Below are positions 15,473 to 58,804 of a stretch of DNA of 64,000 nucleotides, piece after piece. The translations under genes were made by a program, and so were the position numbers. Numbering within the stretch: the stretch's first letter is position 1; each line of letters begins with the position of its first letter. The notes under the pieces are model-generated. The model did no database searches and was not told the DNA's origin. It worked only from the letters and a program-made list of their open reading frames with translations. Source of the stretch: Mytilus galloprovincialis (Eukaryota; Mollusca; Bivalvia; Mytilida; Mytilidae); contig NC_134838.1 in NCBI RefSeq assembly GCF_965363235.1, forward strand, positions 2,485,001 to 2,549,000, written 5' to 3'.

Positions 15473-15974
15473 TTATTTTGTACTTGTATTGATTTTCCTC
15501 ACAGGCTTTGAAAACGGTTTCCATGCATTAACGTCAACTGCAACTTTTCCAACACTTAACGTAGAATCTTGTTTGTTGTTAGACATATCATTTTCTTTAT
15601 TCTTGTTGACAAAATTGTCATTTTTGTTTTTCTTTGGTTGTTTCTTTCGAATGTTAACTGTTTTCTTTTTAACGTTCAAACCTTTAGCTTTTGTCAATGT
15701 CTTCTTAGATTTATTCTTTATTGATAGATCATCGTTTTTATTATTTTTGACTTGTTTGTCCTTTCCTTTATTATTTTTGACTTGTTTGTCCTTTCTTTTA
15801 TTATTTTTGTCATTTTTGTCTTTTCCTTTATTATTTTTATCTTCTTTGTCCTTTCCGGTCTTACGTTTAGCAGAATTTTCTTTTGTGTCACTTGATGTAT
15901 CACGTGAATTTGACCTGCAACATCTACAACACCCAGACTGTGATTCAACATCATCATCGTCTTGAACCCTGTTT
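15473..15974 (-). CDS. Gene A exon 3: cytoplasmic tail and stop
   Basis: Acceptor TTTTTTTTCAG precedes AAACAGGGTT. The exon enters in phase 2, so AA from the previous exon plus A makes Lys, then NRVQDDDDVESQSGCCRCC. The middle is a run of Lys/Asn/Asp-rich units (GKDK, NNK, QVKNNKGKDK twice) that may be disordered and contains basic stretches. The end reads WKPFSKPVRKINTSTK followed by TAA. The plus-strand open frame over the same bases is a shadow. Confidence 0.75.
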
Positions 15975-18900
15975 CTGAAAAAAAAATTATAAGGTTATTG
16001 ACTATTCAAAACACACTCAAACTTATTAATTGCTAGCGTTTATAAAATCTGCTGCAAAAAATACCAAAAGAAAATCCAAACTCATAAGTCGTCGATAAAT
16101 TGAAAATGCCATGGCTAAAACGAAAATCACCAAAAGACAAACAGCAGTATAAAACAAATAAAAACAAAATACAACATACAAAACAAAAAGAAAAAAAAAC
16201 ACACACAAAAAATTACAACTGTACAGCACATAAAGAGTTATGGTTAGAATATTAGACTATGCCATTCAAAAGAAAAGGCAGCAATAGCTAATATTAACAC
16301 CACAATTATATTCATCATTTGACCGAATTTAGACTGCTTATTACCTTTTGATTTAAGTAGTCGTACATTTGTTATTTAGAATTACTTTATATGTTTTCTG
16401 TCTATGAAGAAATACATAAAATTCAGTTGCACCCTGATTAACCTGCGTAGCGGGCTATTTTTAAGAGTGCACCACATTTTTAATGTTGTTTCGAATAGAC
16501 AGAGAAAAAAATTACTGGCATTCCTTACAATTAAATTCTTAATTCCATTTTAAGACGGAGTAAATCGTGAAAAAAATCTTGATGACGTCACGGTCACATG
16601 ACAAAATTATGTCTATGAGCTGATAGACAAAACACTGGCAGCCAATCAGAAGACGTGTTACAACCAAATTTAAATTATATTCAATTATTTGCAACTTTAC
16701 CTTTTTTTGTATATATGAATAAAGATAACAAATATTTCAGATTTGGTTTATCGGATCATACTTTGATCTTCAAAATTTCTTTTTCCAACGCTTGGTAATT
16801 GGTTGCTTCATTTTGATGATTCATTCTGTTTTGATCTGTAGTCACTTTAGTATTCTAATCAATTGTAATCTTTGATTCTTAATTCTTATATTGAAAATAC
16901 TCACTTGCGACAAGAATATCTGCAGCAAAACACACAGAGTATTGCCAATACCACTATAAACAATATCAAAACAACGGCTCCTATGATGTAAAAGTAAGCT
17001 ACAAAAAGATAAAATTACTAAAATACTGAACTCCAAGGAAAAGTCTAGACGGAAAGTCCCTAATCAAATCGTAAAATTAAAAGCCTAAACACATCAAATG
17101 AATGGATTACAACTGTCGTATTTCTAGCTAGGTACACGCATTTTCTTATGTAGAAAAAAATCATATGAGTTTAGAAAATTTACTCGATTTCTTTTTCACA
17201 CTATTGAATAAGAACTATAAGATTGTATGTAAATTAAGAAATAATTCATGGAAGCCATAGCTTTGTTTGAAATTTACACATGGACTGGGCCGTGATATTC
17301 GAATTTTATCCTGAGCGTTAGCGAGGGATAAAACTAACGAATATCACGGCCCAGGCCATGTGTAAATTTACAACAAATCTAGGGCTTCCATGAATTATAA
17401 TTAATTTTGATTATAATAGGACATATAAGTTCATTCAAATACTAAAGCGAGAGTGGGTATGCCGTGTGTGAAGCTGTTCTTTTTTACTCCTTGTTAGATA
17501 AAGCTCAAATATTCTCATAAATCTTTAGCTTGCATTGATTATTTCGTTAATAACCGCTTGAAAAAAATATGTTTACTTCTCAAACCCAATATTTCCGATT
17601 TTTTAATTTACATATTTTCTCGTGAGCTACGGTAACCGTCAAATCCAAAATTGACATTTCGTAACGAAGGAGCTGCCATGTTGACTCGCTGAAATCAATT
17701 GCAATAGAATAGAAAACAAAACAAAACCTACCTCAGAATTCCATTTTAATACAATATTATACGAATTTCGATGGTTACAAAAAAGTTTATATTTTTGTGA
17801 CATTGACTAAACATTGTTTTTATACTGCAACTTAAATTAGTATATTGATAGCTTTTAAAATCGTAACATAAATATCAAGTAATAGTCAGGTTTTCATTCC
17901 TTAATGAACCCCTGATTGTAGAGAAAGTGTTCCATGATGAAATTGGCATTGCACAAAGTATAGCTGTGTTACTATATTTAGGAAATAAACAAAACTAGTT
18001 GCAATATATTAATTCTTTTTATCATGCATCCGAATAAGAATAAAAGTTCTTTAAATTTGTTTTATTACAATTTCTTATACAATAAAATTGGCAAAGCGTT
18101 TGCAAAGTAGGTTCAAATACATGTGGATTTACGTGGGAGGTATATTGTAACATCCATTTATCTCTGAGTCGGCGCTGAGTATAGATATATCGAGAATTTT
18201 CACACAGTGTTGTTTACAAAGCGAAAGAAGCACGTCATATTAGAATGAATAATAACTATTGTACTTATGCTGCTTATGAATCAATACTAAAAGTTAAGCT
18301 GAGTCTCCACTCTCGTATTCTTATCATGTTTATTTAAATTACGAGGAAAGCAAAATGTCGATCTTAAAATACCACGATTTATGAATTGTGGCTTATAAAG
18401 CAATGGAATGGCCACAGATGGGTTCTGTATAAAATTAATAATTTTTTAAGGGCAAACGGTGGCCTATACATGTAGCTGCTATGATTGGCATTCATACCAC
18501 ATTATAAATAAATAAGAATCATGTTTGTGTGTAGCTTTGTTATGCACTACTCACACTAAACAATTTAAATACTTCAGACTTCAAGTTTAATTTTACATGT
18601 TGACATTTGGTCTAAAGAATTGATCGTTGCGTTACAATTCATCTGCAGATATGTTATTGCGTAGTGAAATAAATATAAGCTTCACTTTTGTAAGTTATCA
18701 CAAAAATATATAATTCCAATTGCATTCTTCTTAGATGTAGACAAGTATACGAAACAATGGATGTTATCAGTAGATTGAATTCAACTGAATACTATTTTTA
18801 TATACATACGCACATGCATGGTCTACAATTTGTCGATACCTGTATCTCGGCATAACAAAAGGTAATTTTGTTCTCCGACTGTTAATCACGTTTTGGATGT

Positions 18901-19705
18901 CGGATGTGTACTGATTGACACTTTTGTCTTACATGCATTATTTTTTAATTAGTCATAATTGACTTTGAACAAGCTTTCAGTAACAGCGAGTACTCTCAGG
19001 GGTTTCCTTGGTACCTTTTTGTTATGGGGAGGTATAAGTATCCGTCCACGTCTACTGTTTTTGCTAATGTATTTCTGCTTTTCATCTATCTGACTATTAA
19101 AGTCTTTTCAACTGATTTGTAAACATGTAGTTTGTTTATATTCTTTACTGTTACACCACTGTCCCAGGTTGTGGGAGGGTTCGCGTTCAATCTAGTTTTA
19201 CCCCGCCACATCCTGTATGTGCCTGTCCTAAGTCAGGAGCCTGTTACAAGTATTTAATTGTAGTCATTTATATACGGTATAATATTTGTTTTTCGTTCAT
19301 TATTTTATACATAAATCAAGCTTTTTAATTTTATTTGAATTGTTTCAATTTTGACATTTCGATGCATTTTCTAGCTGCCTATGCAGTATTGGTTTAACTG
19401 TTCGGTAATCTCTGGTTGTTAATCTCTGTGTTATTTGGTGTCTTGTGGATTGTTTTTTCATTGGTAATAATACCACATCTTGTTATTCTTATATACATAT
19501 ATATCTTACCATTTGACAAGAATGATAGACTGCAGGACGGATATTCTCCAACCCAGGCACCGGAAGTGCACGTGACCGTGGGGCTTCCCGACATAACATA
19601 GTTTTGTGAACAGACGTAAAAAACTTGTTCTCCAGCACTATACGATGATTTTACTGGAACATAATACCCATTAGAAATACTTTCTGGCACAGTTGTGCAC
19701 GCCAT
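15473..19705 (-). CDS. Gene A: sushi-domain single-pass membrane protein, Lys-rich tail
   Basis: I assembled three minus-strand exons (19510-19705, 16905-16998, 15473-15974) into a 263-residue protein. Exon 1 is one sushi/CCP domain with cysteines at residues 3, 32, 46 and 58 and the conserved Trp at 51. Exon 2 is a hydrophobic membrane segment starting YFYIIGAVVLILFIVVLAIL and ending in a cysteine cluster (CVFCCRYSC). Exon 3 is a 166-residue cytoplasmic tail with DDDD, CCRCC and many NNKGKDK-like Lys/Asn/Asp units, ending RKINTSTK. Junctions are in phase: exon 1 ends with G before GTAAGA, and G+CT gives Ala; exon 2 ends AA before GTGAGT, and AA+A gives Lys. It is the downstream member of a three-gene array with genes B and C and shares their C-terminal motif. 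No signal peptide follows the ATG, so an upstream exon may be missing. Ligand and function are unknown. Confidence 0.72.
16905..16998 (-). CDS. Gene A exon 2: transmembrane segment
   Basis: 94 nt between acceptor TTTTTGTAG and donor GTGAGT. It encodes a hydrophobic stretch of about 23 residues followed by CVFCCRYSCR. Entry phase 1 and exit phase 2 match the equivalent 97-nt exons of genes B and C. The cysteines beside the membrane are candidate palmitoylation sites (inference). Confidence 0.78.
17241..17398. mobile_element. Fold-back element in gene A intron
   Basis: Inverted arms of roughly 65-70 bp. The left arm ATAATTCATGGAAGCC... is mirrored by ...GGCTTCCATGAATTAT. The inner arms CTGGGCCGTGATATTCG and CGAATATCACGGCCCAG are perfect complements, around a small centre with CTGAGCGTTAGCGAG. 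Non-coding MITE-like hairpin. Confidence 0.75.
18880..19490 (-). repeat. Composite repeat in gene A intron, ending in an R1 copy
   Basis: 18880-19130 carries GTCGGATGTGTACTGATTGA and TACTCTCAGGGGTTTCC, repeated in diverged form at about 53410-53500. From about 19140 to 19485 it is a minus-strand R1 copy: reverse complement starts AAGATGTGGTATTATTACCA and ends in CCTGGGACAGTGGTGTAACA. It lies within 20 bases of the sushi exon donor. Confidence 0.65.
19510..19705 (-). CDS. Gene A exon 1: sushi (CCP) domain
   Basis: Encodes a single sushi domain, MACTTVPESISNGYYVPVKS and onward, with the four cysteines, a Gly-Ser-Pro turn and the Trp expected of the fold. It ends CSLSFLSN plus a G before donor GTAAGATATA. 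The ATG lies two residues before the first cysteine. The frame stays open upstream (S-S-V-I-S-K before Met) and possible acceptors TTCAAAG or AAAGTAG lie there, so this may be an internal exon whose signal-peptide exon was not found. Confidence 0.72.
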
Positions 19706-21747: not shown

Positions 21748-21963
21748 TTATTTTGTACTAGTATTGATATTTCTGATATCATGTGTATGTGGAAGCCATA
21801 TTCTACGAGGAACTACTTTCTGTCGGCGTCGTTCTACTATGAGTAAATCACGAACGGGTAGAGTAGAATCAAACGTCGTCATAGCGTCCTGTCGTCGATT
21901 ACATCTTTTCACTTGATGGAAATATTCTTGTACTATTGCCCAACCTCTGGTTTGTGTCTCTAC
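21748..21963 (-). CDS. Gene B exon 5: terminal exon with conserved C-terminus
   Basis: Acceptor CTCTTTTTAAAG precedes GTAGAGACAC; phase 0 entry. It encodes 71 residues beginning VETQTRGWAIVQEYFHQVKR, then a basic stretch (VERRRQKVVPRR) and the end WLPHTHDIRNINTSTK with stop TAA. The last 16 residues match the ends of genes A and C. Confidence 0.75.
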   Translation of the reverse strand, partial: VETQTRGWAIVQEYFHQVKRCNRRQDAMTTFDSTLPVRDLLIVERRRQKVVPRRIWLPHTHDIRNINTSTK

Positions 21964-24900
21964 CTTTAAAAAGAGATTTAACAAACAAGTTGAAACAGTT
22001 TTAAGCCTTCCTTTTGTTAATTTTACTACATCTATGCTGATTTACAAAACAACTACACGAGAAAATCTAAATACAAGTGAAAACACATATATATTGAAAC
22101 AATTTGTCAAGTGACATTTTTAAAATTCAATGTTTTGGAGTTTAGTATGACGTCCATTATCACTGAACTAGTATACATATTTGTTTAGGGGCTAGCCGAA
22201 GCACGCCTCCGGTGCTGGCCGGCAGTTTCTCGCTGCATTGAAGACCATTTAGTGGCCTTCGGCAGTTGTCTGCTTTTTGGTCTGGTTGTTGTCTCTTTGA
22301 CACATTCCTCATTTCAATTCTCAATTTCATATTTCCTTTTTTTTTTTTTACTTTTCGTCGAAAGGGGATTGTGCGGCAAAATGCTTACATTTCTGAGATC
22401 GTTCCGAGTTTTTGGTAGGATTCGTGTTGCACAGTTTTAACTTTCTATGTATTATACTTTCGACTGCTTGTATTTTGTCATAGCATTGTCAGTCCCTCTT
22501 CTGCATATGAGTGATCAAAGTTGATACTTCCGCAATATGTATTCTTATGTAGATAGGTTTCAATATGACGTAGTTTGAATTTGAAATTCAGTTATTTCTA
22601 ATTTCTAATGGCCGCTAGTTTGGAGGGGTGAATGGTGAATTGTCCATTATGACGAAACAAATTAAAATATGAGGTATACACAATTCTAAGAAGAGATCCT
22701 TATTAAATCAATCAAGTTGGTTTCTGCTGACTTGTGGTTGTAAAATAAAACATCAAAATGACCACATAAGGGAAGTAACTGCTGCATAATTGTGCCAATC
22801 GATACCTATCTAGTATTAGGCAGCAACCATTTGATTTTCTGGGGGGGGCTATGGTTTTTTTTTCTGGACAAATTTTTTTTTTCGCCTGTGGCGAAAAACA
22901 ATCTATTTTTTTCGCGACAAGTCAAAAACAATTTTTTTCTTTCAATTTTAGCATTACATATAGTGGCAGCTGAGGGTGAAACAAACAATTTTTTTTTCTC
23001 AGAATCAAAAACAAATTATTTTTTTCTCCAAAAACTGGAAACAAACTTTTTTTTCCAAAAAAAACCATAGCCCCCCCCAGAAAATCAAATGGTTGCTGCC
23101 TTAATAGAAGAGATACTGATGTAGTTTACTTACTTACATGCTGCTTCAGGTTGGAATTATTGTTATCCTTCACTTCAAACATTTGAGAGATTGCTTGATT
23201 CTGTAAACAGGGGAAAATTATAATTCAAGCTATATATATGATATTTATATCTTTCATATATACTTGAACACACCCGTGATATCGCGGGTCCGTGACTGAA
23301 TTAAAGTATATAACTATGCGCAAGCCTTATTTTAGTATTAGTATTGTCATCTGATAAAGTCATGCCGATTATAAGATACACAGTTTTCTCTGCTTTCAAA
23401 TCGTTCTGTTTGAACACGTCGAACTGGAACTTATCAATTATTGGTAATATTAATTATTTGGAAAACAAAAGGTCCAGGAATGGAGTATTTTTTAATCAAC
23501 AGCATTGTCCTATATTAGTTATAAATAAAGTTGAATTCTTTGATTCGCTGTTTTACGTCATGCCCGCTAACAAATTGAAAACTGTACCTATACGCCTTAT
23601 TTTTAGTCCAGATTTTTAGTATTGTTATCTTAGAAAGTCTTACTGATTAAAATACTACAGTAGGTAACAATTTGACAATTTAGTAGTGTCAATCCTGTGA
23701 TTATGACCCGTGTATATAGCATATTAATCCTGAATACACCGTTTGGTGGTGTGCCTGTCAGATGCGGAACGTACAGATAAGGTAATATGTAACAGGTGAA
23801 TATACTATTGGTATCGGTATCGGACTCGACTCGGAACTTCTTAATTATTGGCAATATTAATTACGTGGAAAACAAAAGGGCCTTGAGTGGTGTAATTTTT
23901 AATCTACACCTTTGTACTATATTAGTTATATATAAATTTGAATTCTTTGATTCGTCGTTATTACGTGATGACGGCTGACAAATTGGACCTCGTAATATAT
24001 TATAGATGTGTCATTTCACCTTATTGACAGTTAAAACTAGTTATTCTACATCATAAGTATTCAAACAGTATGGTTGAAATAGAGCTTTTCTACACTCGGA
24101 ATTCTAACATAACAGATCTGCATTAAGTATTTATTTATGTTTTGCTCCGTTTAAGAGGTCTCGCTGTGACTATGAGATGAAGCAGTAATTTAAGTGCTGC
24201 CCCTTAGCTTTTGAGTGAAGGTTGCTGATGTATTCATTAAGTGTCATGGATTGATAACCAAAACCTATATGTACCAATTCAGTAAACGATACATAATATA
24301 AAAAAAGAAGATGTGGTATGATTGCCAATGAGACAACTCTCCACAAGAGACCAAAATGACACAGAAATTAACAATACAAGATCATTATTGAATTTCATCC
24401 GCTATTTTTGGATGTGTCTATTACTTTTCTCTGTTCTTCGCAGTTATTTCTTGCACACTCTAATTCTTATAGTCATACGTGTGTAAACTAACATTGTCAA
24501 AATTGTCAAAACTGTTGAATATGTGTGTATAACAATGGAAACTGCTATTTTGTGTGTTAATGTTTAAAGAAATGCTAACCTTAGTTGGTGTTTCTTGTAC
24601 CATATTCATTTTATCAGACATCGATGTTACACTATTACTCGCTACTTTTTGCTCATTTCTCGGACGCTTCCTTCGACAACATCCAGCATAACGATAGCAA
24701 CATGAACAGCCTTTACCTGCTCCTCCACCTGTGTGGTCAATCATTAAATTAGGGTCTACTTTTGGACTGCTGAAATAAAATGAGAAAGAATCTGGTCGTT
24801 CATTTCAACATTTAGTTACAATAGTTCATTACAATATTATATTATTAGAATGTATTACATTTTTGTTATATCCCTGCCATGCCCATACTAACCTATAAGT

Positions 24901-26177
24901 AAAGACATTATTTATGATTTAATAACTGCTTATTAATGCAAGGATAGATATTTCGTGCTTCCTTTATATTCGCCATTCGAAACAATCAATATGTTTTAAT
25001 CACGACAATTAAGTCCACTGATACTGACATTCTCGGCACGTACACTTGAAAGGACAAATGTCCAAATAACCAAAACAAAAATATAACGTTATTACACATA
25101 CCCAAACAACTTCCATAGAACTGCGGCTAAACAAGCCAGGAGTAAAATCACCGCTAGGACTGCTGCCAAGCCAACCATTGCAATCAACCAAACAGGTACT
25201 ACAAAAAATTCACAAAACGGATAACAACTAATCTTTGATGCATGCGGATAATATAGTTGAACATTCTCTAAATATACATGATATGGCGTCACCTTCACAT
25301 ACGTCTTTTCATGTTTACACGAATGTATGTAATTGTCAAGGACATTTAATTATGACAATGTTAGCACTGTCAAAAGTGATAACGGAATGACAAATTTCAA
25401 AATATCTTAAAAAAATATTTCTGACATCATTTAGAGGAATCTTGTATTTAGACGTCTGGATAGAAAGCAACAGCACCCTGTCTACTCTGAATTCTTCTTT
25501 CTGTTGAAGGTTACGCATCTAGTGAACACGGAGCAGATTTCAGTTTTAAAGTCCCCATGACCTTACAAACTCAGAAGGACGTTGATGTCCTATTTTTTTC
25601 TAGTAAAAACAACTAAACTTTATTCATTGACCTCAAATATTTTTGGCTGCTCAGATTGGAACTAAAAGAAATATTTTTAAGAATTGCATAAGTTTCTTTT
25701 AGTTGCACCATTAAATGAGTCGCGTTGTGCGTATTAAGTTGCAAGGGTGTATCCACATTTGCATTCAGAGCGGAAATTTTAATCATGTGACAGTTTGCAT
25801 TCAACCAGTTATTTGAACATTTGTGTTTTGTGTCATTGAACCTTGTATGGAATGTTATATGTTTGGTTGAACCTGTTAATAAGGACATAATTAAAGAAAA
25901 TCATGACAAGAATTTTTTTTTTTTACATGACCTTATTTGTAAATAAAATACAATAAATGACTGTACTTTCATCTTGGTTATTGGTGATATCTAACCAATA
26001 CTGGTTGGCTGAGTTTATTAGCGAACATTCAGGAAGTGGGCTTGACCATTGTCCATTGTAACAGCCGATCTGTGGACTACCATTGATTTTGTATCCAGTA
26101 TTACAGGTATAAGTGGCCACATCGTTAACAACCTCGCTGGTGCCACCTGATATAGCTGGCGGGTGTGGACAACTCAT
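21748..26177 (-). CDS. Gene B: sushi-domain single-pass membrane protein
   Basis: Five minus-strand exons: 25967-26177 (donor uncertain), 25102-25198, 24580-24769, 23138-23200 and 21748-21963. The protein is about 258 residues. It has one sushi domain (Cys 3, 25, 39, 51; Trp 44), a membrane segment PVWLIAMVGLAAVLAVILLL, and a cysteine-rich juxtamembrane exon (GKGCSCCYRYAGCCRRKR). A 21-codon micro-exon follows, then a basic terminal exon ending WLPHTHDIRNINTSTK. Exons 2-5 join in frame with good consensus sites. The exon 1 donor is unresolved: only GTACAG at 25961-25966 gives the required phase 1. The membrane exon is the same length (97 nt) as that of gene C and the two align closely. Gene A follows downstream. 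No signal peptide is visible, and function is not known. Confidence 0.68.
22140..22335 (-). repeat. R2 copy in gene B intron
   Basis: Read on the plus strand it has TTGGAGTTTAGTATGACGTC, GAACTAGTATACATATTTG, GCACGCCTCCGGTGCTGGCC, TCTCGCTGCATTGAAGACC and TTGTTGTCTCTTTGACACAT, the reverse of R2 at 62815-63015. Confidence 0.7.
22819..23100. mobile_element. Harbinger-like MITE in gene B intron
   Basis: Terminal inverted repeats of about 45 bp: left GGCAGCAACCATTTGATTTT, right AAAATCAAATGGTTGCTGCC. They are flanked by a perfect TTA duplication (22816-22818 and 23101-23103). A 3-bp TTA/TAA target duplication is typical of PIF/Harbinger elements. The interior is poly(T)-rich with a small TTCGCCTGTGGCGAAAAAC hairpin. 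The open frames crossing it are artefacts of the T-runs. It ends only 37 bases from gene B exon 4. Confidence 0.8.
23138..23200 (-). CDS. Gene B exon 4: 21-codon micro-exon
   Basis: Acceptor CCCTGTTTACAG and donor GTAAGTAAG enclose exactly 63 nt, read as NQAISQMFEVKDNNNSNLKQ-H. It is phase 0 at both ends, so it could be included or skipped without changing the frame. It was found only from its splice sites; genes A and C show no counterpart. Confidence 0.6.
23370..24000 (+). repeat. Diverged direct duplication in gene B intron
   Basis: A block of about 165 bp occurs twice, at about 23430-23600 and 23835-24000. Both have AACTT..TTAATTATTGG(C/T)AATATTAATTA, GGAAAACAAAAGG, CTATATTAGTTATA and TTGAATTCTTTGATTCG. 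The copies are clearly diverged. It may be part of a dispersed element beginning near 23270 (CACCCGTGATATCGCGGGTC). Confidence 0.6.
24303..24385 (+). repeat. R1 5' fragment in gene B intron
   Basis: AGAAGATGTGGTATGATTGC followed by CAATGAGACAACTCTCCACA and ACACAGAAATTAACAA: a well-preserved but truncated R1 start. Confidence 0.85.
24580..24769 (-). CDS. Gene B exon 3: cysteine-rich juxtamembrane segment
   Basis: Acceptor ATTTTATTTCAG precedes CAGTCCAAAAG; entry phase 2 completes a Gly codon (GG+C). It encodes SPKVDPNLMIDHTGGGAGKG, then CSCCYRYAGCCRRKR and a polar segment ending ETPTK before donor GTTAGC. The acceptor is a tandem NAGNAG (CAGCAG), so one Ser can be gained or lost. Six cysteines in eleven residues suggest lipid anchoring or metal binding (inference). 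Confidence 0.72.
25102..25198 (-). CDS. Gene B exon 2: transmembrane segment
   Basis: 97 nt between acceptor TTTTTTGTAG and donor GTATGT. It encodes PVWLIAMVGLAAVLAVILLL plus ACLAAVLWKLF. Length, phases (1 in, 2 out) and sequence align with gene C exon 2 (PLWLLIILGAVGVCAALLFL). The other two frames also stay open over this stretch but are not membrane-like. Confidence 0.8.
25199..25966. other. Gene B intron 1, no further exon supported
   Basis: AT-rich, with a 91-codon minus-strand open frame at 25613-25888 that starts with ATG but has no recognisable domain and no fitting splice sites. An extra exon here would solve the uncertain donor of exon 1, but none was found. Confidence 0.4.
25967..26177 (-). 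CDS. Gene B exon 1: sushi (CCP) domain
   Basis: Starts MSCPHPPAISGGTSEVVNDV and carries four cysteines plus GYKINGSP and NGQWSSPLPEC, a textbook CCP pattern in 51 residues. As in gene A, Met lies two residues before the first Cys. The tail CSLINSANQYW aligns with gene A CSLSFLSN. The 3' limit given uses GTACAG as donor; GTATTG and GTTAGA just upstream give the wrong phase for the membrane exon. A possible acceptor GACTAG lies just before the ATG, so this may be internal. Confidence 0.65.
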
Positions 26178-27333: not shown

Positions 27334-28319
27334 TTTGTTTTTAAAGTAAATTTTATTCTTTCAGCACTTTTGAAATTGGCCCTTTTGTGATGTATGGAAT
27401 TATGGAGTGCATATTAATTTAAACAAAAAAAGATACTTACAGTTTTACGAATATGGAGACTGTTTGTTAATCGTTTATGATATGATTAATTCGCACACTG
27501 AAAGTTTTCTATATTTTGAACATCCTGTTCATTTTACTCCTTGTAAGGGTTTGAAATAAAAAAAAATGTTTCAGGTTTTAAATAATATTTTCGTTTTTAA
27601 ATTAATTTCATATTATTTTTGACATTTGGACTCTGATTGCGTTTATAATATCCAGTTGAATTAACCGTAAAATTTTAACTTACTATCTCCTATTTTGGTT
27701 TCAAATGAGAATCTGCAAATTCGTTAAAATTAAAGATTTTACGTAAAATGTCTTAGTGTCTTTTTCTTTAATACTATAATAATTTCTCTGTATTTGTACG
27801 TATACAGTTATATGTCCAACATGGAAACGCCTTTAGCTCGTTATGGCCATGAAATAGTCATTTTGTTAGTTTCGTTAGTGGTATTTTTAAATTTTACAAT
27901 ATACTGAATTGAAATACGAAAATCGTTTTTTAAATGTTCAAAGACATGGAAATTGTATCTTTATCTTCTTTTGCTAATTTGAAGCTACGTATTTGCTTAA
28001 TAACTACTGCATGAAATTGTTTTTCATGGTTAATGTTTCCTTTTGATCCCATAGAATTTAATCTAGTCATATATTGCACGGTCATGTTGTCTGATGCATA
28101 CACATTATTTTGCCTATTATTTAAAGGACAATCGAGGTTAAAGATGATTCAGTAAAAACGGCAAAGTTCCTTTTGTTGTGCTCAACTACTAAAATTCAGA
28201 TACAATAACATTTAAAATATACATTATTGTCCCGCTAAACTTTGACACTCTTGATTCAAGGAACTAATTGGAAAATTATTTAATGTAAAATTAAACACAA
28301 TAACAGATATCTACATATA
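27334..28319. other. No gene recognised
   Basis: AT-rich sequence between the rolling-circle-like element and the palindromic element. No splice-flanked open segment or known repeat could be supported. Confidence 0.4.
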
Positions 28320-28762
28320 GAATGAAATTCAAAACAGTGTGGCTGTGGCCATTGATTGACACATTAAATTCATCCATTGACTGGGACAATTTAGGTGAAC
28401 GTTTGTATGTAACGACCACTGCTTACTATGTACTTTTTAAAGAAACTTAAACTATGGGGTCACCAAAGGTTCTCAACACCTTAATAAAGTAATTCGAAAA
28501 ATTAATGAGAAATAACACGATGTTTTGATTTATATCAATTATATAAATCAAAACATAAAGGTTATTCCTGATTGATTTTTCGAATTATTTTATAATTAAA
28601 GGCGTTAAGAAACCTTTGGTGACCCCACAGTTTAAATGTCTATCGTAGGTACGTCGTGAACAGTGGTCGTTACAAACAAACGTTCACGTAAATTGTCCCA
28701 GTCAATGGATGAATTTAATGTGTCAATCAATGGCCACAGCCACACTGTTTTGAATTTCATTC
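28320..28762. mobile_element. 443-bp palindromic (fold-back) element, copy 2
   Basis: Nearly identical to 12487-12930, with the same ends GAATGAAATTC and GAATTTCATTC and TA on both sides. Differences are a handful of substitutions and one or two single-base indels (for example CAAAACATAAAGG against CAAAACTTAAAAGG at the centre). Two copies in one window suggest recent activity. Confidence 0.85.
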
Positions 28763-29519
28763 TAATACTTTTTTTAAAAGTTTCCCACAGTTCAAACGTT
28801 GTAGTTGAAAGAACCATGACATGCAAATTGTGGTAATCTTGTACCAGCTATAATATCAGAAAAAAGAAAGGATATGGCGTCTCCATTCATGACACGCGTT
28901 CAGTACATGCACAGCAAAAACTCACAAAAAGGACAGATTATTTAGAAAGAATATTTGAATAATAAACATATTTATTTCATATATTTGTATCTTAAACTGC
29001 GGTATAGTTATGTCATATTTGATATTCAGTCAGGAATGGTGCGTTTATTAGTACATAAAGCACCAAGTGGTTGTTTTCTGTTATTAAAAATGTTGTATCA
29101 TCATGAATCATCCATGCATATACATACTTTTAATTCTTCTTTAAACTTTATACCTACTACAAGTTATACGTATGTTGAATCTATTTTAGATCTAAAATAA
29201 TTTCTAGTGAACTTCTTTTTTACTTTTGCTTTGGATCCAATTTTGCAGATTGTTGGCCAACTGTTTGTATTCGTTTCCAATCTGTATAGACTTTCCTGTT
29301 CTTCTGAAACGTCATAATGTCGAGCAGGTACTTGTACCAAGAAGCCTTTCTAACAGTAACAACGTAATCTAATACACTAATACAGCAAATACAAAATCAA
29401 CAACGTAAAGCTTTAATTATCTACCGAACCATCAACTACTTTAAAATGTTAAATATGTCCCCTGAATAATAAGAAGGCTACGCTCAATGAAATTGATGAA
29501 ACTTAAGCGCCAAATACCA
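28763..29519. other. No gene recognised
   Basis: Unassigned AT-rich sequence. An 81-codon plus-strand open frame at 28955-29200 has no recognisable features. From about 29480 the sequence grades into the satellite. Confidence 0.4.
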
Positions 29520-36280: not shown

Positions 36281-36345
36281 AAATCCACAGGCATACACCT
36301 TTGTGTCATTAAAAATCCACAGGCATACACCTTTGTGTCAATTTG
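36281..36345. repeat. 32-bp minisatellite, 2 copies, unit 1
   Basis: Two copies of AAAAATCCACAGGCATACAC plus CTTTGTGTCA(T/A)T. The same locus has five copies in unit 2 and two in unit 3. Confidence 0.9.
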
Positions 36346-45484: not shown

Positions 45485-45636
45485 GGCTCTCTGGAATCAC
45501 GTCAGGGAAGTTTGAAGTTCCAGGCTCTCTGGAATCACGTCAGGGAGATTTGAAGTTCCAGGCTCTCTGGAATCACGTCAGGGAGGTTTGAAGTTCCAGG
45601 CTCTCTGGAATCACGTCAGGGAAGTTTGAAGTTCCA
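45485..45636. repeat. 38-bp x4 minisatellite, unit 3
   Basis: Four copies; the second has a private change (GGGAGATTTGAAG). Confidence 0.9.
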
Positions 45637-47319
45637 CTGGATAAAATAAGGACACAAATATTGTCTTGAAACAGGCCATTTATGGACCCCTCATAAAGTT
45701 TTTGCAAGGGTTCGTACAGTGTAGTGAGCATGGTGCTCTTATTACACAAGACATTGGATCTTGTTAAAATGTATTCCCATTCCGACCAGACGTGATGGCG
45801 TACTTTTACGTCCCACATAGCTATAGGGTTGACCAACTTCGACCAGGTTTTACTACCGGTCGGAAAAAGAAAATTTGTTATTTGGATGGAGAGTTGTCTC
45901 ATTGGTACTCAAACCACATCTTCCTATATCTATATCTACTAGTAAATTTCTCACTCACTCTAGGCCTTTGCAAACTTTTTCATAGATAAAAAAAATGGCT
46001 ACAATGTAGAAAGTTTTGCTGTACCTGTTAAATAAGAACATCACTTAACATTTTTACAATATATACACGCTTATGAGACCACAAAGATCGTACGTCCTCT
46101 TGATACTGTTTGCTTATATTTGGCATTGCATCAATCTAATTAAAAACCGATCTCTCATCGCTCCCGTTTTCTGATATGTCGCGTGGGAGATCTAACGAAA
46201 CCCACTTTGAGGTCACATGTTCAACTTCTTTGACTATAAGTTAACAAAAAAATACAATAAAATACAGAAAAAGGGTAACCAATGACATCTCAAATACCAA
46301 AGTAAGAAAGTGATTTGTGACGGTTTTGTCAACGAACTGTACAGCGATTATTTAAAAACGCACAACAAAGTCGACATATTTGGAGGAACGAACAATACAG
46401 TTAGAGAAAACTTATTTAGTATGATATTGCGTTTATTCTAAGTTCTAGGGAAGATTTGAAGGCACGTACATGTAGTAATTCAACGTATAGTTTTTTTTAT
46501 TATTGCTTAAGGTATTTTAAAATACGCAAAGATGTATCCACGAAAAGATATTCAGCATTGTTTATCGCATAAAACGTATGAAATTGCACCATGTCCGTGC
46601 GTTTGCATCTAGCAGTTTTATTAGACAGATAATTTATGTGGCAATTTTTTGAAGCAAAATCAGTCAATGTACAGAGAGACACACACACAGTTTTCCGTAC
46701 ATACAAATGTTCGCTAGTACCTTGCAAAATAAATGTCAGTGCGAAAATTTAACAAAACTAAACATTTAGAAGAAAAATGTGGAGGAATCTATCTGTTTGT
46801 GACAAAGCTCTGATACCGTACCCAGGTTTCGGCTATTTTGCTGGGGTTTTGTTAATATTATTCTGTGTAAACACACACTAATTGAATTTTCTGACCAATA
46901 ACTTTAGAAATTAAAACTGTATTTTTTGTGTAAGCGTATGATCATAAAGCGTGTAAACAGAATAGTCAAAAATGCTTTGAGCTCAGATTTGCGTTTGAGA
47001 GTTGAAATCTTAATTTCATCACTTTGGACAGTTCCACTATATACACTGAAAATTCAAATCGAGCTTTAATATTCTAAACATGTCGGAGCAGAGCTGTTAC
47101 TATTTGGCTAGCCGCTTCCTTATGGACTGATAATCATTCTTGAAGTATCATAATGTATGATACAAGTACTTTTTTGGTATTTTTGTCGGTTAAAACACTT
47201 TATTCAAGTTGTTTAACTTGAGAAGAATTTTTAAAAATTGAAATAGAAAATAAATGAAACTGATTTCTTGTAAAATCAATCTCTTAAAGTGTTACTATTT
47301 TTCAATTAATATGATAATT

Positions 47320-48319
47320 ATACCCCCGCTTTAAAAAAGGGGGGGTATACTGTTTTACCTCTGTCTGTCAGTCCGTCCGTCCGTCCATCAGTCCGTCAGT
47401 CCGTCCGTCAGTCAGTCAGTCCGTCCCATGAAACTTTCGTCACATTTTTCTCAGGAACTACACATCCACCCTTTCTGTAATTTGGTATCAACATTTATAT
47501 ATGTCAGCCATACCGTGTGATGCGTTTTCAGATTCATCACTTGACAACTTCCTGTTTACCGAACACTTGTCTGATTTTACACATGATAGCCAAGTTGAAA
47601 ATTTTCGTCACATTTTTCTCAGGAACTACAATACAAGGATTTCTGAAATTTGGTTTCAGGATTTATATAAGTCAGCTATACCGTGTGATGCGTTTTCAGA
47701 TTCATCACTTGACAACTTCCTGTTTACCGAACACTTGTCTGATTTTACACATGATAGCCAAGTTGAAAATTTTCGTCACATTTTTCTCAGGAACTACAAT
47801 ACAAGGATTTCTGAAATTTGGTTTCAGGATTTATATAAGTCAGCTATACCGTGTGATGCGTTTTCAGATTCATCACTCGACAACTTTCTGTTTACCGAAC
47901 ACTTGTATGATTTTACACATGATAGCCAAGTTGAAAATTTTCGTCACATTTTTCTCAGGAACTACAATACAAGGATTTCTGAAATTTGGTTTCAGGATTT
48001 ATATAAGTCAGCTATACCGTGTGATGCGTTTTCAGATTCATCACTCGACAACTTCCTATTTACCGAACACTTGTATGATTTTACACATGATAACCAAGTT
48101 AAAAATTTTCGTCACATTTTTCTCAGGAACTACAATACAAGGATTTCTGAAATTTGGTTTCAGGATTTTTATAAGTCAGCTATACCGTGTGATGCGTTTT
48201 CAGATTCATCACTCGACAACTTCCTGTTTACCGAACACTTGCATATTTTTACACTATTAATATTATCCACTTGCGGCGGGGGTATCATCAGTGAGCAGTA
48301 GCTCGCAGTTTCACTTGTT
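47320..48319. mobile_element. HINE/pearl-like element with five 168-bp tandem repeats
   Basis: It is absent from the matching place in units 1 and 2, where ATAATT runs straight into TCATTTGCC, so this is a clean insertion between two T. The left end is a hairpin, TACCCCCGCTTT-AAAA-AAGGGGGGGTA; the right part carries GCGGGGGTA, the inverse of TACCCCCGC, then a small hairpin GAGC-AGTA-GCTC near the end. A (GTCC)n microsatellite follows the left end. Five repeats start at 47513, 47681, 47849, 48017 and 48185, spacing exactly 168 bp. Sub-terminal inverted repeats, microsatellite, tandem core, 3' hairpin and insertion between T and T are features of Helentron-associated (HINE, including bivalve pearl) elements; the class is an inference. 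Confidence 0.8.
47513..48260 (+). repeat. 168-bp tandem repeat core
   Basis: Because 168 is a multiple of 3 and the unit lacks stops in two frames, long plus-strand frames of 266 and 247 codons run across it. Changes between copies are about as often replacing (S to Y, S to N, E to K, L to F) as silent, which does not suggest protein selection. Regarded as non-coding. Confidence 0.85.
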
Positions 48320-48365
48320 TCATTTGCCTAAAAAGGAACTGATGATTAATGAATTCGCTGTAAAA

Positions 48366-48432
48366 AATAAAAATCCACAGGCATACACCTTTGTGTCATT
48401 AAAAATCCACAGGCATACACCTTTGTGTCAAT
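48366..48432. repeat. 32-bp minisatellite, 2 copies, unit 3
   Basis: Two copies of the unit AAAAATCCACAGGCATACAC plus CTTTGTGTCA. Confidence 0.9.
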
Positions 48433-48761
48433 TTGGTATTAATGTAGTTCGAATGTGATCCTGAGTCCGTCATTCGTTGATTTAAAAATAATTTTTCATT
48501 AAAATTTATGATTAATACTACTACGCGAATGGAATAATTCGTTCAAATTATTATCAAATTTATCATCGAACAATACATAATGACATATAATAGAACAATA
48601 ACATAATGCCGGGATCTTTAAAAGTACAGCGAAACAATGAACCACACAAAAGTCGCATATACTAAACACACCAGCAAAAATGAAAGATAATACAAACACA
48701 TTCATTTTGTATACAATGTAGGTACCAAGCCACGTCAAATGAATATCACATAAAACAGACC

Positions 48762-48862
48762 ATGCGTACGGTGACCTATAGTTGTTAATTTTGTGTCATT
48801 GTGGTCTCTTGTGAAGAGTTGTCTCATTGGCAATCATACCACATCTTCTTTTTTATATATAC
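48762..48862 (-). repeat. R1 5' fragment in unit 3
   Basis: Equivalent of 36695-36825 but missing about 30 bp at one side (CATGCGTACGGTGACCTATA), so the GGCCTTCAACAATGAGC part is deleted. Confidence 0.8.
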
Positions 48863-49596
48863 AAACAGTAAAAGTAATATTAATAATTAAACAACTTGAA
48901 AGACAAATAAAAGGACAATATAAAACGTAGTTAAGATTATAAACAACGTCAGTACGCAGAATCTACACATCAAGACCGTCATGTATTATTTGTGAAGTTG
49001 ATACGGAAAATTTATCAGCAAGGTCTTGGTACCTTCCGATGAACTTTTTTAGAAAAGGACGAGACGTTAATTCTTTGACATACCCCTGGTTCGTCAACTT
49101 TCTGGTCAGACACTAATGACGTTTTACAAAGTCTGAGAAGGAGCTGCAAGCTCTTGAATAGCGAATAAGTTTGGAAATGTATATCCCATATACAGGTGAA
49201 GTTGGTATATTGCTACTAAGGTCACTGGGGGAAAGCGGTCGTCCGTACATTCCGTTACGGACCGCCCAATATGGTAGATGGCAGTATCGATAAGATTTTA
49301 TGTTTCTCAAATTCTTTTGATCGGAAGCATTGTCGATAGAGAAAATTGGTAATTGTCTGTGAGATATATAGAACAACACAAATATCAAGTGTTCTGGAGA
49401 TAAAATAACGATATAATGGTAATATATACAACTTTTTTTAAAAAAACGAGAAGCTGTACGTAACTTTAAAAATGAAAATAGAACAGCTGTTCGTAACGGA
49501 TCTTACGGTCGTGCTTAACTCACTTATAATTTTATCGATTTGTCAAATGTATACCACTAACTTCTATCAATGTAACAATTTGATGGTCATATTGCA

Positions 49597-53041: not shown

Positions 53042-53254
53042 TCATTTAGTACTTGTATTGTTAGGCCGCACATCTTTTTTGTGTGGCATCCATTTGTCTG
53101 CCGGTGGTTTTGCTGCTCTTTGTTTCGCTTCAATAAATTTCGCGTATCCTGGTGGTTGGTAAGCAGTAGAAAGTTTCTTCTCAGGAACAATACTAGTATT
53201 TGTCAATTGTGAATTCTTATTGGATTTAAGATTTCCATGTACAGTTTTTGTTGT
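53042..53254 (-). CDS. Gene C exon 4: terminal cytoplasmic exon
   Basis: Acceptor TTTTTTTTCAG precedes ACAACAAAAAC; phase 0. It encodes 70 residues: TTKTVHGNLKSNKNSQLTNT, then YQPPGYAKFIEAKQRAAKPP, ending KWMPHKKDVRPNNTSTK and TGA. The last 16 residues share W, P, R and NTSTK at fixed spacing with genes A and B. Confidence 0.78.
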   Translation of the reverse strand, partial: TTKTVHGNLKSNKNSQLTNTSIVPEKKLSTAYQPPGYAKFIEAKQRAAKPPADKWMPHKKDVRPNNTSTK

Positions 53255-54485
53255 CTGAAAAAAAAATCATCAATAGAGTCTCACGTATCACTTAATGTGA
53301 TGCAAAGCTTTTTTTCTCTCTGTTGTCAAGAACATTGATTTTGAAAGTTATCACTTATATGTAAATAGCTTACTTGCCATTGTTTATGATGTTTTTATAC
53401 TAAATCCGTCGGATGTGTACTGATTGATATTTAAGTTTTGTACAACTTCATTACTTCATTAGTTGTTATCATCTTTGAACTAGCTTACAGGGGATGCGAA
53501 TACTCTCAAATCGGTACTGTATGAGGTTTTGATTGTCATTTTTAAATTGTTTTCATTTTCTCCATGTTAATATAATGAGTTTGGTACTTTCAAATGGATG
53601 TTTTACGGTTTATTATACTGTTTTGCTGTTACTGCATTGTCTAGCTATATATAGGGTTATGAGAAAGTTAAACGCTCATCAACGCGTTTAGCCCGGCTAC
53701 ACTCGTTATGGACCTGTAATTTAGTGGTTGTCGTTGATTACTGTGTGTCGTGCTTATTAATTAAGCATAACTCAAATGGTCGATTTGAATTGTTTCACAT
53801 TTTCTCATGCCGAGCCTTTGTAAACCCAGGAAACGATTCCGGTCCGAATAAAAAGTTAAGGTTCTTTGGCATTTCAGATGTATAGTTCGTGCTGTAATAA
53901 CGATTCGTTTGTTATGGTTGATTGTTGGTTGTTCAACGTCCAGTGGCAAATATTGAATTCATGTTGCGGACAGAAAAAAATTAACAATACATGTAATGTT
54001 AAATTCCAGTAATAGGGGCGAGAAGGATGAAGGACGGGACATTTTGACCACCACTGGAAAATGAGGTGTATTGGATAGGGATAGAAAATTGGCAATGCAA
54101 CAGACGAGAGAAGTTGCATGGGTTCTTACCAAAAGAAAATGACAATTTTTCTATTCCCAGTCACCATTGTTGGGCTTGGTACTATGTGGATGCAAATTGC
54201 GTCCAATAGATAAATTCATAAGTCTAGTATTGTTTTAATGAATTGTTACCTTGTTCTTCGCGGTCGCCATATTGTTTGTCCTATTCGAGGGGTCATTATG
54301 TATTCGGTTGTCACGTCGACTCCAAAAGCTACCTTTATCTCCATTAGATCTCATATGCCAACACCTGAATTCAATATGTGAAAAATAAATAAGAAAATAA
54401 TGTTGACATCTGTATTGGAGGATTGAGCAATTTTTTAGTGATGTTTTTTTTTAAGACTCTCATACACCACCTATCAAACGAATTA

Positions 54486-54564: not shown

Positions 54565-57500
54565 ATTATTTGTCGGTACAAATATCATATATTGTATTTT
54601 CCATATATTCTGCATAAAAGTCTATAAAACGTAAGAACTTTGTTATAATACACTAAATCTCAAGGGTCACATTTAACCATCAAATGCATGAACATTAGTA
54701 AACAACATTTGATAATGGCAAATTACAAAATTACAGAAATTATCAATTTTATCTAACTTGTACTCTAGTATAGGGATGTATAAATTCACAGTGTTCTACA
54801 TATTAAAGTACACAAAACATTTGTAAATGATCTTCTTTGACATGTTGAAAGATCGGAATGATATTTGAATCTGTAAACCTAATGACAGAATTTGATATAA
54901 TTACCCCAAACATTTGAGACAACATGCTAACATACAGCACAAAAATAACAAGGCCGCACACACGCCAACTGCTCCAAGAATAATCAACAACCATAAAGGA
55001 ACTGAAAGATAAATAAATACTTTATATCATGAACAATTAACTTCAACAAAGCATATTTTAATCTAAGAACAAATTAATACCTCTTAAACAAACAATATAC
55101 CAGTTACTTATAGCATGGTATTGGTTGCAAAAACTTTTCATTTAAATGCAATATGTTTTATTCAACTGGTATATTTCTTCATTTAAACGAGCTTAATAAT
55201 AATAAATCTTAGTATAACGATTAACTAATTCGTTGTAACGAGGAATTGAAATATATAACTCCACCCTGACATTGATCGGCTTCTTTAAAATCTATCATAC
55301 ATATAAAAAATGAAGAAAATTATTGAGAAGACGATGATTTCGATAGCCAGACAAATGCTATTAGGAGGAAGATGTTATCGGTAGACAATAAGTCTGTAAA
55401 GAGACTATGTTATCGATAGCCAGGAGAAGTCTATAAAGAGACGATGTTATCGATAGCCAGGAGAAGTCTATTAAGAGGAAGATGTTATCGATAGCCAGGA
55501 GAAGTCTATTAAGAGGAAGATGTTATCGATAGCCAGAAGAATTCTATAAAGAGACGATGTTATCGATAGCCAGGAGAAGTCTATTAAGAGGAAGATGTTA
55601 TCGATTTACCGATAGCCAGAAGTCTATTAAGAGGAAGATGTTATCGATAGCCAGGAGAAGTCTATTAAGAAGAGGATGTTATCGATAGCCAGGAGAAGTC
55701 TATTAAGAGGAAGATGTTATCGATAGCCAGGAGAAGTCTATTAAGAGGAAGATGTTATCGATAGCCAGGAGAAGTCTATTAAGAGGAAGATGTTATCGAT
55801 AGCCAGAAGAAGTCTATTAAGAGGAAGATGTTATCGATAGCCAGGAGAAGTCTATTCAGAGGAAGATGTTATCGATAGCCAGGAGAAGTCTATTAAGAGA
55901 AAGATGTTATCGATAGCAAGGAGAATTCTATAAAGAGACGATGTTATCGATAACCAGGAGAAGTCTATTAAAAGGAAGATGTTATCGATAGCCAGGAGAA
56001 GTCTATTAAGAGGAAGATGTTATCGATAGCCAGGAGAATTCTATAAAGAAGCGATGTTATCGATAGCCAGGAGAATTCTATAAAGAGACGATGTTATCGA
56101 TAGCCAGGATAATTCTATAAAGAGACGATGTTATCGATAACCAGATGAAGTCTATTAAAAGGAAGATGTTATCGATAGCCAGTAGAAGTCTATTAAGAGG
56201 AAGATGTTATCGATAGCCAGAAGAAGTCTATTAAGAGGAAGATGTTCTTGGTAGACAAAATAAGTCTATTAAGATGTAGATGTTATCGAAAGCCAGGAGA
56301 AGTTTATTAAGGGGGAGATGTAATCGATATCCAGGAGAAGTCTATTAAGAGGACGATCATATCGATATCCAGAAGAAGTCTATAAAGAGACGATGTTATC
56401 GATAGCCAGGAGAATTCTATAAAGAGACGATTTTATCGATAACCAGGAGAAGTCTATTAAAAGGAAAATGTTATCGATAGCCAGGAAAAATCTATTAAGA
56501 GGAAGATGTTATCGATAGTAAAAAATCTATTAAGAGGAAGATGTTATCGATAGCCAGGAGAAGTCTATTAAGAGGAAGATGTAATCGATAGCCAGGAGAA
56601 GTCTATTAAGAGGAAGATGTTATCGATTTATCGATAGCCAGAAGTCTATTAAGAAGATGTTATCAAAAGCCAGAAGAATTCTATAAAGAGGAAGAAGATA
56701 TCGATAGCCAGTAGAAGTCTATTAAGAGGAAGATGTTATCGATAGCCAGGACAAGTCTATGAAGAGGAAGATGTTATCGATAGCCAGGAGAAGTCTATTA
56801 AGAGGAAGATGTTATCGATAGCAAGAAGAATTATATAAAGAGTCGATGTTATCGATAACCAGGAGAGGTCTATTAAAAGGAAGATGTTATCGATAGCCAG
56901 GAGAAGTCTATTAAAAGGAAAATGTTATCGTTAACCAGGAAAAGTCTATTAAAAGGAAGATGTTATCGATAGCCAGGAGAAGTCTATTAAGAGGAAGATG
57001 TTATCAATAGCCAGGAGAATTCTATAAAGAGGCGATGTTATCGATAACCAGGAGAATTCTATAAAGAGACGATGTTATCGATAGCCAGGATAATTCTATA
57101 AAGAGACGATTTTATCGATAAGCAGATGAAGACTATTAAAAGGAAGATGTTATCGATAGCCAGTAGAAGTCTATTAAGAGGAAGATGTTATCGATGGCCA
57201 GAAGAAGTCTTTTAAGAGGAAGATGTTATCGATAGCCAGAAGTCTATTAAGAAGAAGATGTTATCGAAAGCCAGAAGAATTCTATAAAGAGGAAAATGAT
57301 ACCGATAGCCAGGAGAAGTATATTAAGAGGAAGATGTTATCGATAGCCAGGAGAAGTCTATTAAGAGGAAGATGTTATCGATTGCCCAGAAGAAGTCTAT
57401 TAAGAGGAAGATGTTATCGATAGACAGATTAAGTCTATTAAGAGGAAGATGTTATCAATAGCCAGAACAATTCTATAAAGAGGCGATGTTATCGATAGCC

Positions 57501-58804
57501 AGACAAAGTCTATTGTGGACAATGTTATCGATAGAGAAGAAGAGGTCTATAAGCCGGACGGTGATATCGATAAACAGAAGAAGTCTATCAAGAGGAAGAT
57601 GTTATCGATAGCTAGAAGAATGCATCACTTACCAGACTGAATATGGTTGTTAATTTCCGGTTTGTTGTCAATTGTTATAGGTTTGATGGCAATCCCTATA
57701 GGTGTGGTAACAATTATTTTAGGTGTGGTAACAGTTCCTATAGGTTGTATGTTTTGCAATTTGCAGATTGGTAAGTTGCCTCTCCAATCCCCATTGAAAC
57801 ATACAAGGTTATTAAAACGTCCCGCCAAAATATATCCCGTGTAACACTTGTATATCGCTTGATTACGGTTAATTGCAACATTTGCTGCATTAACATAGGG
57901 CGCGGCACCGCATGCATTACTGATTTTGCCGAACAAAAGTGTCGTCAAAATTGTGGAAGTCTCGCTTAATGAATACGGCAGGGATTCTGTTGTTGAATCT
58001 TGACTACCTGTATCAGGCAGAAAGTCGGTTGTTGAATCCTGACTACCTGTATCAGGTAGAGAGTCGGATGTTGAATCCTGACTACCTGTATCAGGTAGAG
58101 AGTCGGTTGTTGAATCCTGACTACCTGTATCAGGCAGAAAGTCGGTTGTTGAATCCTGACTACCTGTATCAGGTATAGAGTCGGATGTTGAATCCTGACT
58201 ACCTGTATCAGGTATAGAGTCGGTTGTTGAATCCTGACTATCTGTATCAGGTAGAGAGTCGGTTGTTGAATCCTGACTACCTGTTTCAAGTAGAAAGTCG
58301 GTTGTTGAATCCTGACTACCTGTATCAGGCAGAAAGTAGGTTGTTGAATCCTGACTACCTGTATCAGGTAGAGAGTTGGTTGTTGAATCCTGACTACCTG
58401 TATCCGGCAGAGAGTCGGTTGTTGAATCCTGACTACCTGTATCAGATAGAGAGATGGTTGTTGAATCCTGACTACCTGTATCAGGCGGATAGTTTGATGT
58501 GGAATTCTGACTACTTGTATAAGGCAGAAAGTTTGTTTTGGAATTCTGACTTCCTGTATTAGGCAGATAGTCTGTTGTGGAATTCTGACTACCTGTATAA
58601 GGCACGGAGTTTGTTGTGGAATTCTGTTTAGCTGTGTAAGGTGTTAATTCTGTTGTGGAACTATGTCTACCTGTGTAAGGTGTAAATTCTGTTGTGGAAT
58701 TCTGACTACCTGTATATGGCGGATAGTTTGATGTTGAATTCTGGCTACCTGAATAAGGCAGATAGATTGTTGTGAAATTGATCAACATTAGCAACGTCGT
58801 CATT
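53042..58804 (-). CDS. Gene C: mucin-like stalk, sushi domain, single-pass membrane protein
   Basis: Four minus-strand exons (57633-58804, 54905-55001, 54250-54364, 53042-53254) give 531 residues. Order: a short hydrophobic N-terminus (MTTLLMLINFTTIYL, possible signal peptide), twenty 13-residue Ser/Thr-rich repeats (residues 20-279), a sushi domain with Cys 298, 320, 335, 347 and Trp 340, and a Pro/Ile/Thr stalk. Then come a membrane segment PLWLLIILGAVGVCAALLFL with CC, CC and C beside it, and a 108-residue tail ending WMPHKKDVRPNNTSTK. Junctions are in phase: G+TT gives Val, GG+G gives Gly, and the last joint is phase 0. The gene is the upstream and most elaborate member of the array with B and A. 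It is probably a heavily glycosylated surface protein; its ligand is unknown. An upstream 5'UTR exon is implied by the CAG acceptor just before the ATG. Confidence 0.75.
53390..54110 (-). repeat. Old composite repeat in gene C intron 3
   Basis: 53400-53500 resembles 18890-19000 (GTCGGATGTGTACTGATTGA, then ACTAGCTTACAGGGGATGCG against CAAGCTTTCAGTAACAGCG). The next 400 bp contain degraded R1-like phrases (GTTATGGACCTGTAATTTAG, GATTTGAATTGTTTCACATT). No coding potential. Confidence 0.45.
54250..54364 (-). CDS. Gene C exon 3: cytoplasmic segment
   Basis: Acceptor ATTGAATTCAG and donor GTAACA enclose 115 nt (1 + 38 codons). It reads CWHMRSNGDKGSFWSRRDNR, then IHNDPSNRTNNMATAKNK. Frame is set by exon 2 (GG+G). 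Polar and basic, without a known domain. Confidence 0.7.
54489..54560. repeat. (AT)n dinucleotide repeat, about 36 units
   Basis: A perfect TA/AT run in gene C intron 2. The open frame across it (YIYIYI) is meaningless. Confidence 0.95.
54905..55001 (-). CDS. Gene C exon 2: transmembrane segment
   Basis: Acceptor CTTTCAG and donor GTAATT enclose 97 nt. It encodes PLWLLIILGAVGVCAALLFL and then CCMLACCLKCL. Same length and phases as gene B exon 2. The longer minus-strand open frame over this stretch is in another frame and is a shadow. Confidence 0.8.
55325..57621. repeat. 38-bp satellite filling gene C intron 1
   Basis: About 60 copies of GATGTTATCGATAGCCAGGA plus GAAGTCTATTAAGAGGAA. Variants include AGAATTCTATAAAGAGACGA and occasional 8-15 bp gains (ATCGATTTATCGATAGCC). 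It covers almost the whole 2.6-kb intron and stops about 12 bases from the exon 1 donor. Open frames inside it are by-products. Confidence 0.92.
57633..58804 (-). CDS. Gene C exon 1: N-terminus, 13-residue repeats, sushi domain
   Basis: ATG at 58803 follows an acceptor TTTCTTTCTAAAACAG-A, and the exon closes CAGTCTG before donor GTAAGTG. It holds 390 codons plus one base. The first 15 residues are hydrophobic and may act as a signal peptide, though without the usual positive charge. Then twenty 13-residue units, a linker, one sushi domain (CGAAPYVNAANVAINRNQAI..., four Cys, Trp in NGDW) and a 43-residue stalk rich in Pro, Ile and Thr. Other open frames on both strands of this exon are shadows of the 39-bp repeat. 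Confidence 0.8.
57967..58746 (-). repeat. 39-bp coding minisatellite, 20 units
   Basis: Each 39-bp unit encodes one 13-residue repeat, for example SQDSTTDSLPDTG. All 20 units keep the frame. Units 1, 2, 4, 5 and 7 from the N-terminus contain the N-glycosylation sequon N-S-T, while units 8-20 have D-S-T instead. The DNA of units 8-20 is the more uniform. Confidence 0.92.

Follow-up and report, generated by a model that had tools for sequence, protein, structure and literature searches.

Genes and Features of the Window

The window, i.e., the whole stretch of DNA analysed, comprises 64,000 nucleotides of Mytilus galloprovincialis (contig C1:2485001-2549000, in a genome of 1.38 Gb and 331 contigs). 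The pattern W-x-P-x5-R-x2-NTSTK with an adjoining stop codon was found at three minus-strand sites, all in frame, at the ends of three predicted genes named A, B and C. Splice sites of these genes were picked by eye, and membrane exons were joined to terminal exons on the basis of splice sites and phases.

Gene A
15476..15523, minus strand: conserved C-terminus WKPFSKPVRKINTSTK, stop at 15473-15475, read directly
15473..15974, minus strand: single tail exon, phase 2 to stop, splice sites by eye
16905..16998, minus strand: transmembrane exon, 94 nt, phase 1 to 2, splice sites by eye
19511..19705, minus strand: sushi match to PF00084, E 1.3e-11, exon ends not fixed

Gene B
21751..21798, minus strand: conserved C-terminus WLPHTHDIRNINTSTK, stop at 21748-21750, read directly
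21748..21963, minus strand: last exon, phase 0 to stop, splice sites by eye
24580..24769, minus strand: Cys-rich tail exon (CSCCYRYAGCC), phase 2 to 0
25102..25198, minus strand: transmembrane exon, 97 nt, phase 1 to 2
26004..26177, minus strand: sushi match to PF00084, E 4.8e-10, exon ends not fixed

Gene C
53045..53092, minus strand: conserved C-terminus WMPHKKDVRPNNTSTK, stop at 53042-53044, read directly
53042..53254, minus strand: last exon, phase 0 to stop, splice sites by eye
54250..54364 (alternative start 54409), minus strand: weak candidate for a middle tail exon, phase 2 to 0
54905..55001, minus strand: transmembrane exon, 97 nt, phase 1 to 2
57736..57918, minus strand: sushi match, E 8.5e-4, 20.1 bits against a Pfam cutoff of 20.7
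57977..58779, minus strand: mucin-like Ser/Thr-rich tandem repeats, 39-nt unit

The tail exon of gene A encodes a juxtamembrane NRVQDDDD box, the string GCCRCC, a Lys/Asn-rich stretch and the terminus. Splice sites and phases agree for the joins between membrane exon and tail in genes A and B. For the middle exon of gene C, a strict scan gave no candidates and a relaxed scan gave nine, the two best-scoring of which have the common donor 54250; since this exon is a weak candidate, the join from membrane exon to last exon in gene C is presumptive. The Ser/Thr-rich repeats of the same gene are N-terminal to its sushi match, and one open frame runs through both. In a simple scan, no exon of A, B or C could be convincingly assigned to a signal peptide, and therefore the topology of the three proteins is a presumed one.

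The earlier note on this DNA had reported the three ends, and the exact readings in A, B and C, each with an immediate stop, confirm them. It had also described Trp, Pro, Arg and NTSTK as invariant at fixed spacing, which holds for 3/3 ends in the window and for 7/7 genome-wide. With a model of independent residues at the six-frame frequencies of the window, the pattern plus stop is expected 1.2e-7 times per window and 0.0025 times in the whole genome, while 3 and 7 were found, respectively. NTSTK-like codons alone, sought with a loose DNA pattern, were uninformative (5043 forward and 5202 reverse matches vs. 4928 and 4878 in the control). Rarity is a property of the full motif adjoining a stop, as opposed to the common NTSTK-like codons.

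The window also holds several repeats and open frames. The stretch 32045-47319, between genes B and C, is a tandem array of a roughly 5.5-5.6-kb unit, with two copies and the greater part of a third (98.7-98.8% identity); parts of the unit turn up again at 48318-49596 (89-91%). A satellite repeated in tandem every 74 bp or so occupies 29517-30703, and 2.3 kb between the sushi and membrane exons of gene C (55321-57620) are a minisatellite of roughly 37-bp units. Two copies of an element of about 450 bp, 97% identical, are found at 12475-12938 and 28312-28774; the element also aligns with its own inverted sequence at about 87%, in a foldback-like manner. On the plus strand, 168-bp repeats at 47431-48254 form an open frame of 289 codons (47432-48298). 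On the minus strand, an open frame of 260 codons at 3590-4369 resembles the C-terminal part of a LINE-type retrotransposon protein.

Relatives Across the Genome

Protein searches of the mussel's own genome were run at E up to 10 with the tails of A, B, C, D2 and F and one consensus as queries. All matches fell in a single set of seven ends, and no match outside it was obtained in the 1.38 Gb with these five tails and the consensus. The queries returned different parts of the set (A 4, B 5, C 2, D2 6, F 6, consensus 6), none of them all seven. Since the genome search scores the best candidates only, seven is a lower bound and more diverged ends are possible. In addition to the ends of A, B and C, the set includes the following, each found in the own-genome search and read in sequence:

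C1:82140035: end D1
C1:82141038: end D2
C1:51520966: end E
C1:53035446: end F

The seven termini belong to six loci (A, B, C, D with two, E and F), all on contig C1. The full motif plus stop is present in 7/7 ends, a count that is not independent of the search, as the six loci were found via this terminus. Upstream of their ends, loci D, E and F show the arrangement of A, B and C, with sushi exons followed by a membrane exon. The gathering cutoff of PF00084 was passed by 8/9 scanned sushi stretches, namely those of A, B, D (three, one beside the membrane exon and two upstream), E and F (two); the stretch of gene C, just below it, was the only exception. In these matches the proteins resemble known sushi/CCP (SCR) proteins, from which they differ in cytoplasmic tails that match no Pfam family. 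Membrane exons measure 88-97 nt and run from phase 1 to phase 2 in 6/6 loci, and the next tail exon begins in phase 2 in 5/5 of those found (A, B and D, and on visual reading also E and F).

One exon encodes the tail in A, E, F and D1; in B and C, the last exon is a separate one that begins in phase 0. At locus D, two possible terminal exons lie 1 kb apart, both with the terminus, and D2 has a phase-0 acceptor resembling those of B and C. Locus D thus seems to carry both kinds of end, the one-exon type and the phase-0 type, each with the same terminus. Among sushi sequences, the closest relative of A is E (63% identical), which indicates that the cluster in the window is not a simple recent tandem array.

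Judged by this common structure, A, B, C, D, E and F are one small paralogous family with a sushi, transmembrane and tail layout. The earlier note had suggested that varied ectodomains might be found with this end. That suggestion found no support in this genome, as all six loci found are sushi-transmembrane paralogues. A tag carried by varied ectodomains was accordingly rejected for this genome, each terminus having a sushi match and a membrane exon at its locus.

Upstream of the membrane exon of D, three similar sushi exons are located at C1:82033359, 82080655 and 82130468, with a spacing of about 47-50 kb. The 9-10 kb downstream of each of the first two showed a few hydrophobic stretches, none of them a convincing membrane exon, and no convincing tail exon. 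These two may be extra sushi exons of D, which would make it a very long multi-sushi gene. At C1:110310312-110317454, many sushi matches fall within one open frame of 2821 codons. Weaker sushi matches in the genome were set aside, and relatives that lack the terminus may be among them.

The Remainder of the Tail

The tails had been described in the earlier note as impossible to align by eye beyond the terminus. This does not hold throughout, since a juxtamembrane [RK]-x-R-V box is common to A, D, E and F, and Cys-Cys pairs occur in the tails of A, B, D and F. After the box, the tails of A, E and F run on with acidic residues and that of D with a Ser/Glu-rich stretch. Cysteines number 5 in the tail of A, 6 in B, 16 in D1, 1 in E, 16 in F and 0 in the last exon of C; Cys clusters are therefore common in these tails, not universal. 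The Cys cluster of D, used as a genome query, returned D and F only.

The seven terminal segments gave no match to a Pfam family at E up to 10, nor did seven longer tail pieces at E up to 0.1. Comparison with solved structures gave insignificant matches only (best E 0.089 for the C tail and 0.42 for the seven-end alignment). When viral contigs were scanned with the alignment of seven sequences, 19 stretches had the peptide pattern and none passed tblastn, so that no viral relative was confirmed.

Comparison with Known C-Terminal Signals

Conserved C-terminal motifs on receptor tails are already known as a kind. The terminus was compared with established signals using approximate regular expressions on six tails: A, B, C (last exon only), D (D1 only), E and F. 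In these six sequences, no match was found to KKxx, KDEL, PTS1, NPxY or di-Leu signals, to Gly, Arg or acidic C-degrons, or to the Tyr-based ITIM and ITAM half-site of immune receptors. The expressions for PDZ ligands of classes 1-3 also failed in 6/6 tails, and position 0, where such ligands have a hydrophobic residue, is Lys in 7/7 ends. The statement of the earlier note that this is not a class I PDZ ligand was therefore correct and can be widened, as a C-terminal Lys fits no PDZ class tried. An approximate expression for C-terminal 14-3-3 sites, in which a phospho-Ser/Thr near the end has a basic residue close by, failed in 6/6 tails as well. The terminus resembles PDZ ligands and C-terminal 14-3-3 sites as a short motif at the extreme C-terminus, more conserved than the rest of the tail; it differs from them in ending in Lys and in not matching the 14-3-3 pattern. 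YxxPhi is present in the last exon of C and in F only, outside the terminus, and the termini have no Tyr. The only pattern tried that fits the tip was a loose PKC-like site, [ST]-x-[RK], formed by Ser at -3 and Lys at -1 in 6/6 tails, which would be weak evidence for phosphorylation. Apart from this loose site, these expressions assign the terminus to no docking or sorting class among those tried.

The main rival to docking is sorting or stability: instead of docking an effector, the terminus could direct trafficking or stability, by sorting to cilia or the apical surface, by endocytic retention or by shielding from C-degron pathways. A C-terminal position is common among sorting signals, and the place of this segment at the extreme end, its invariant Lys and its conservation within the distal tail in 7/7 ends would all suit such a role. 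The absence of the sorting and degron patterns from the six tails and the restriction of YxxPhi to two of them, away from the termini, speak against it, and sixteen residues with eight invariant positions are long for a simple sorting signal. On balance we regard it as rather unlikely, though a serious contender.

A phosphorylation switch has a poorer prospect and is considered distinctly improbable. The Thr/Ser/Thr-Lys end would be phosphorylated, for example at the PKC-like S-T-K, and would thereby switch the binding of a phospho-reader such as 14-3-3 on or off, in line with the loose match just described and with Thr, Ser and Thr at -4, -3 and -2, invariant in 7/7 ends. Nevertheless, the C-terminal 14-3-3 pattern is unmatched because Arg lies six residues from the penultimate Thr, and phosphorylation alone leaves the invariance of Trp, Pro and Arg unexplained.

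Constraint on the Terminus

Over the last 16 codons of the seven ends, pairwise identity is 0.72, 0.82 and 0.51 at codon positions 1, 2 and 3. The preceding 16 codons, aligned from the stop without gaps, give 0.36, 0.33 and 0.37, and the 57 nt after the stop (3' UTR) give 0.27, both near background identity. Pairwise differences at the eight invariant positions are all synonymous, 78 against 0 non-synonymous (105.5 and 398.5 sites, respectively, pS 0.74), and all 16 codons pooled give pS 0.74 and pN 0.21; these values are descriptive, as the pairs among seven paralogous sequences of 16 codons each are non-independent and the depth comes from paralogues only. For single pairs, pS ranges from 0.37 (A-E and B-E) to 1.11 (D1-D2). 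Silent divergence is only moderate in the former two and in A-B (0.42), and silent sites are saturated in D1-D2, with a raw pS that exceeds 1 from small counts and a pN of 0.08.

The terminus is held by purifying selection at the amino-acid level in the seven paralogous ends. Besides the invariant positions, residues are restricted to K/L/M at -15, F/H at -13, V/I at -9 and I/N at -6, and -7 is free, so that the family consensus reads W-[KLM]-P-[FH]-x3-[VI]-R-x-[IN]-N-T-S-T-K-COOH.

The 78 to 0 differences and the codon-position identities argue strongly against two explanations of the likeness that dispense with protein function. Recent duplication, gene conversion or terminal-exon shuffling, with no functional constraint, could be suspected from the location of all seven ends on one contig, the two D ends 1 kb apart and the silent divergence of 0.37-0.42 in a few pairs. 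It would require high synonymous identity, though, and is contradicted by the pooled pS, by a 3' UTR near background and by eight positions free of amino-acid change, which make it very improbable. A conserved nucleotide element, such as an RNA-processing or regulatory site overlapping the stop codon, is barely credible. In its favour, all copies of the terminus adjoin the stop, and NTSTK is written with few codons (Lys AAA 7/7, Ser AGY 7/7). Against it, third positions are variable (identity 0.51 for the 16 codons and 0.65 for NTSTK), four ends stop with TAA and three with TGA, and past the stop identity falls to 0.27; the conservation by codon position contradicts such an element.

Proposed Role of the Terminus

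The shared gene layout, the one set of seven termini obtained from all queries and the amino-acid constraint were observed here and form the basis of the reading that we favour with some confidence, namely that the terminus may be a family docking motif for one shared cytoplasmic partner, docking being meant in a wide sense that covers signalling or trafficking. The earlier note had proposed a docking or sorting signal recognised by a common partner. The constraint that this implies is strengthened by the selection on the tip and by its presence in both D ends, while docking and sorting or stability are inseparable with these data.

In the proposed mechanism, the family would consist of single-pass membrane proteins with a sushi ectodomain, one transmembrane helix and, on the presumed topology, a cytoplasmic tail of roughly 130-175 residues (that of C being uncertain) in which Cys clusters are frequent. 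A short linear motif, which came from the family ancestor and was kept by purifying selection, would make up the final 16 residues, and the remaining tail would have drifted while the tip stayed. The tip, including its free C-terminal Lys, would dock to one cytoplasmic partner common to the family, which would act in signalling or trafficking. Putative S-acylation of the Cys clusters would keep the tail at the membrane, with the variable stretch as a tether whose length differs between members. Judging from the sequences, all members probably have one partner that recognises the tip.

A molluscan system with a comparable layout has been described in Biomphalaria. The TM1 proteins of the Guadeloupe Resistance Complex are reported to be single-pass, with a membrane domain more than 50 residues from either end, and a layout of recognition outside and signalling inside was proposed for them (PMC4361660). 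The likeness to the present family is one of layout, and the difference is that most TM1 proteins have fibronectin III domains, as opposed to sushi here. Neither 'sushi' nor 'motif' appears in that paper's main text, and a term search of a second Biomphalaria paper (PMC7494358) gave no hit. In the open-licence literature, the letter strings NTSTK and INTSTK led to no relevant paper, and nothing specific on bivalve sushi receptors or conserved sushi-receptor tails was evident.

The set of six loci keeps a functional search tractable. The 16-residue peptide, with its eight fixed positions, is a ready-made bait, and a pull-down could identify the cytoplasmic partner of the sushi-receptor family. 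More tentatively, the tip might represent a new class among C-terminal linear motifs, recognised by a dedicated reader and serving an invertebrate sushi receptor family. If so, one cytoplasmic adaptor would collect signals from freely diverging ectodomains.
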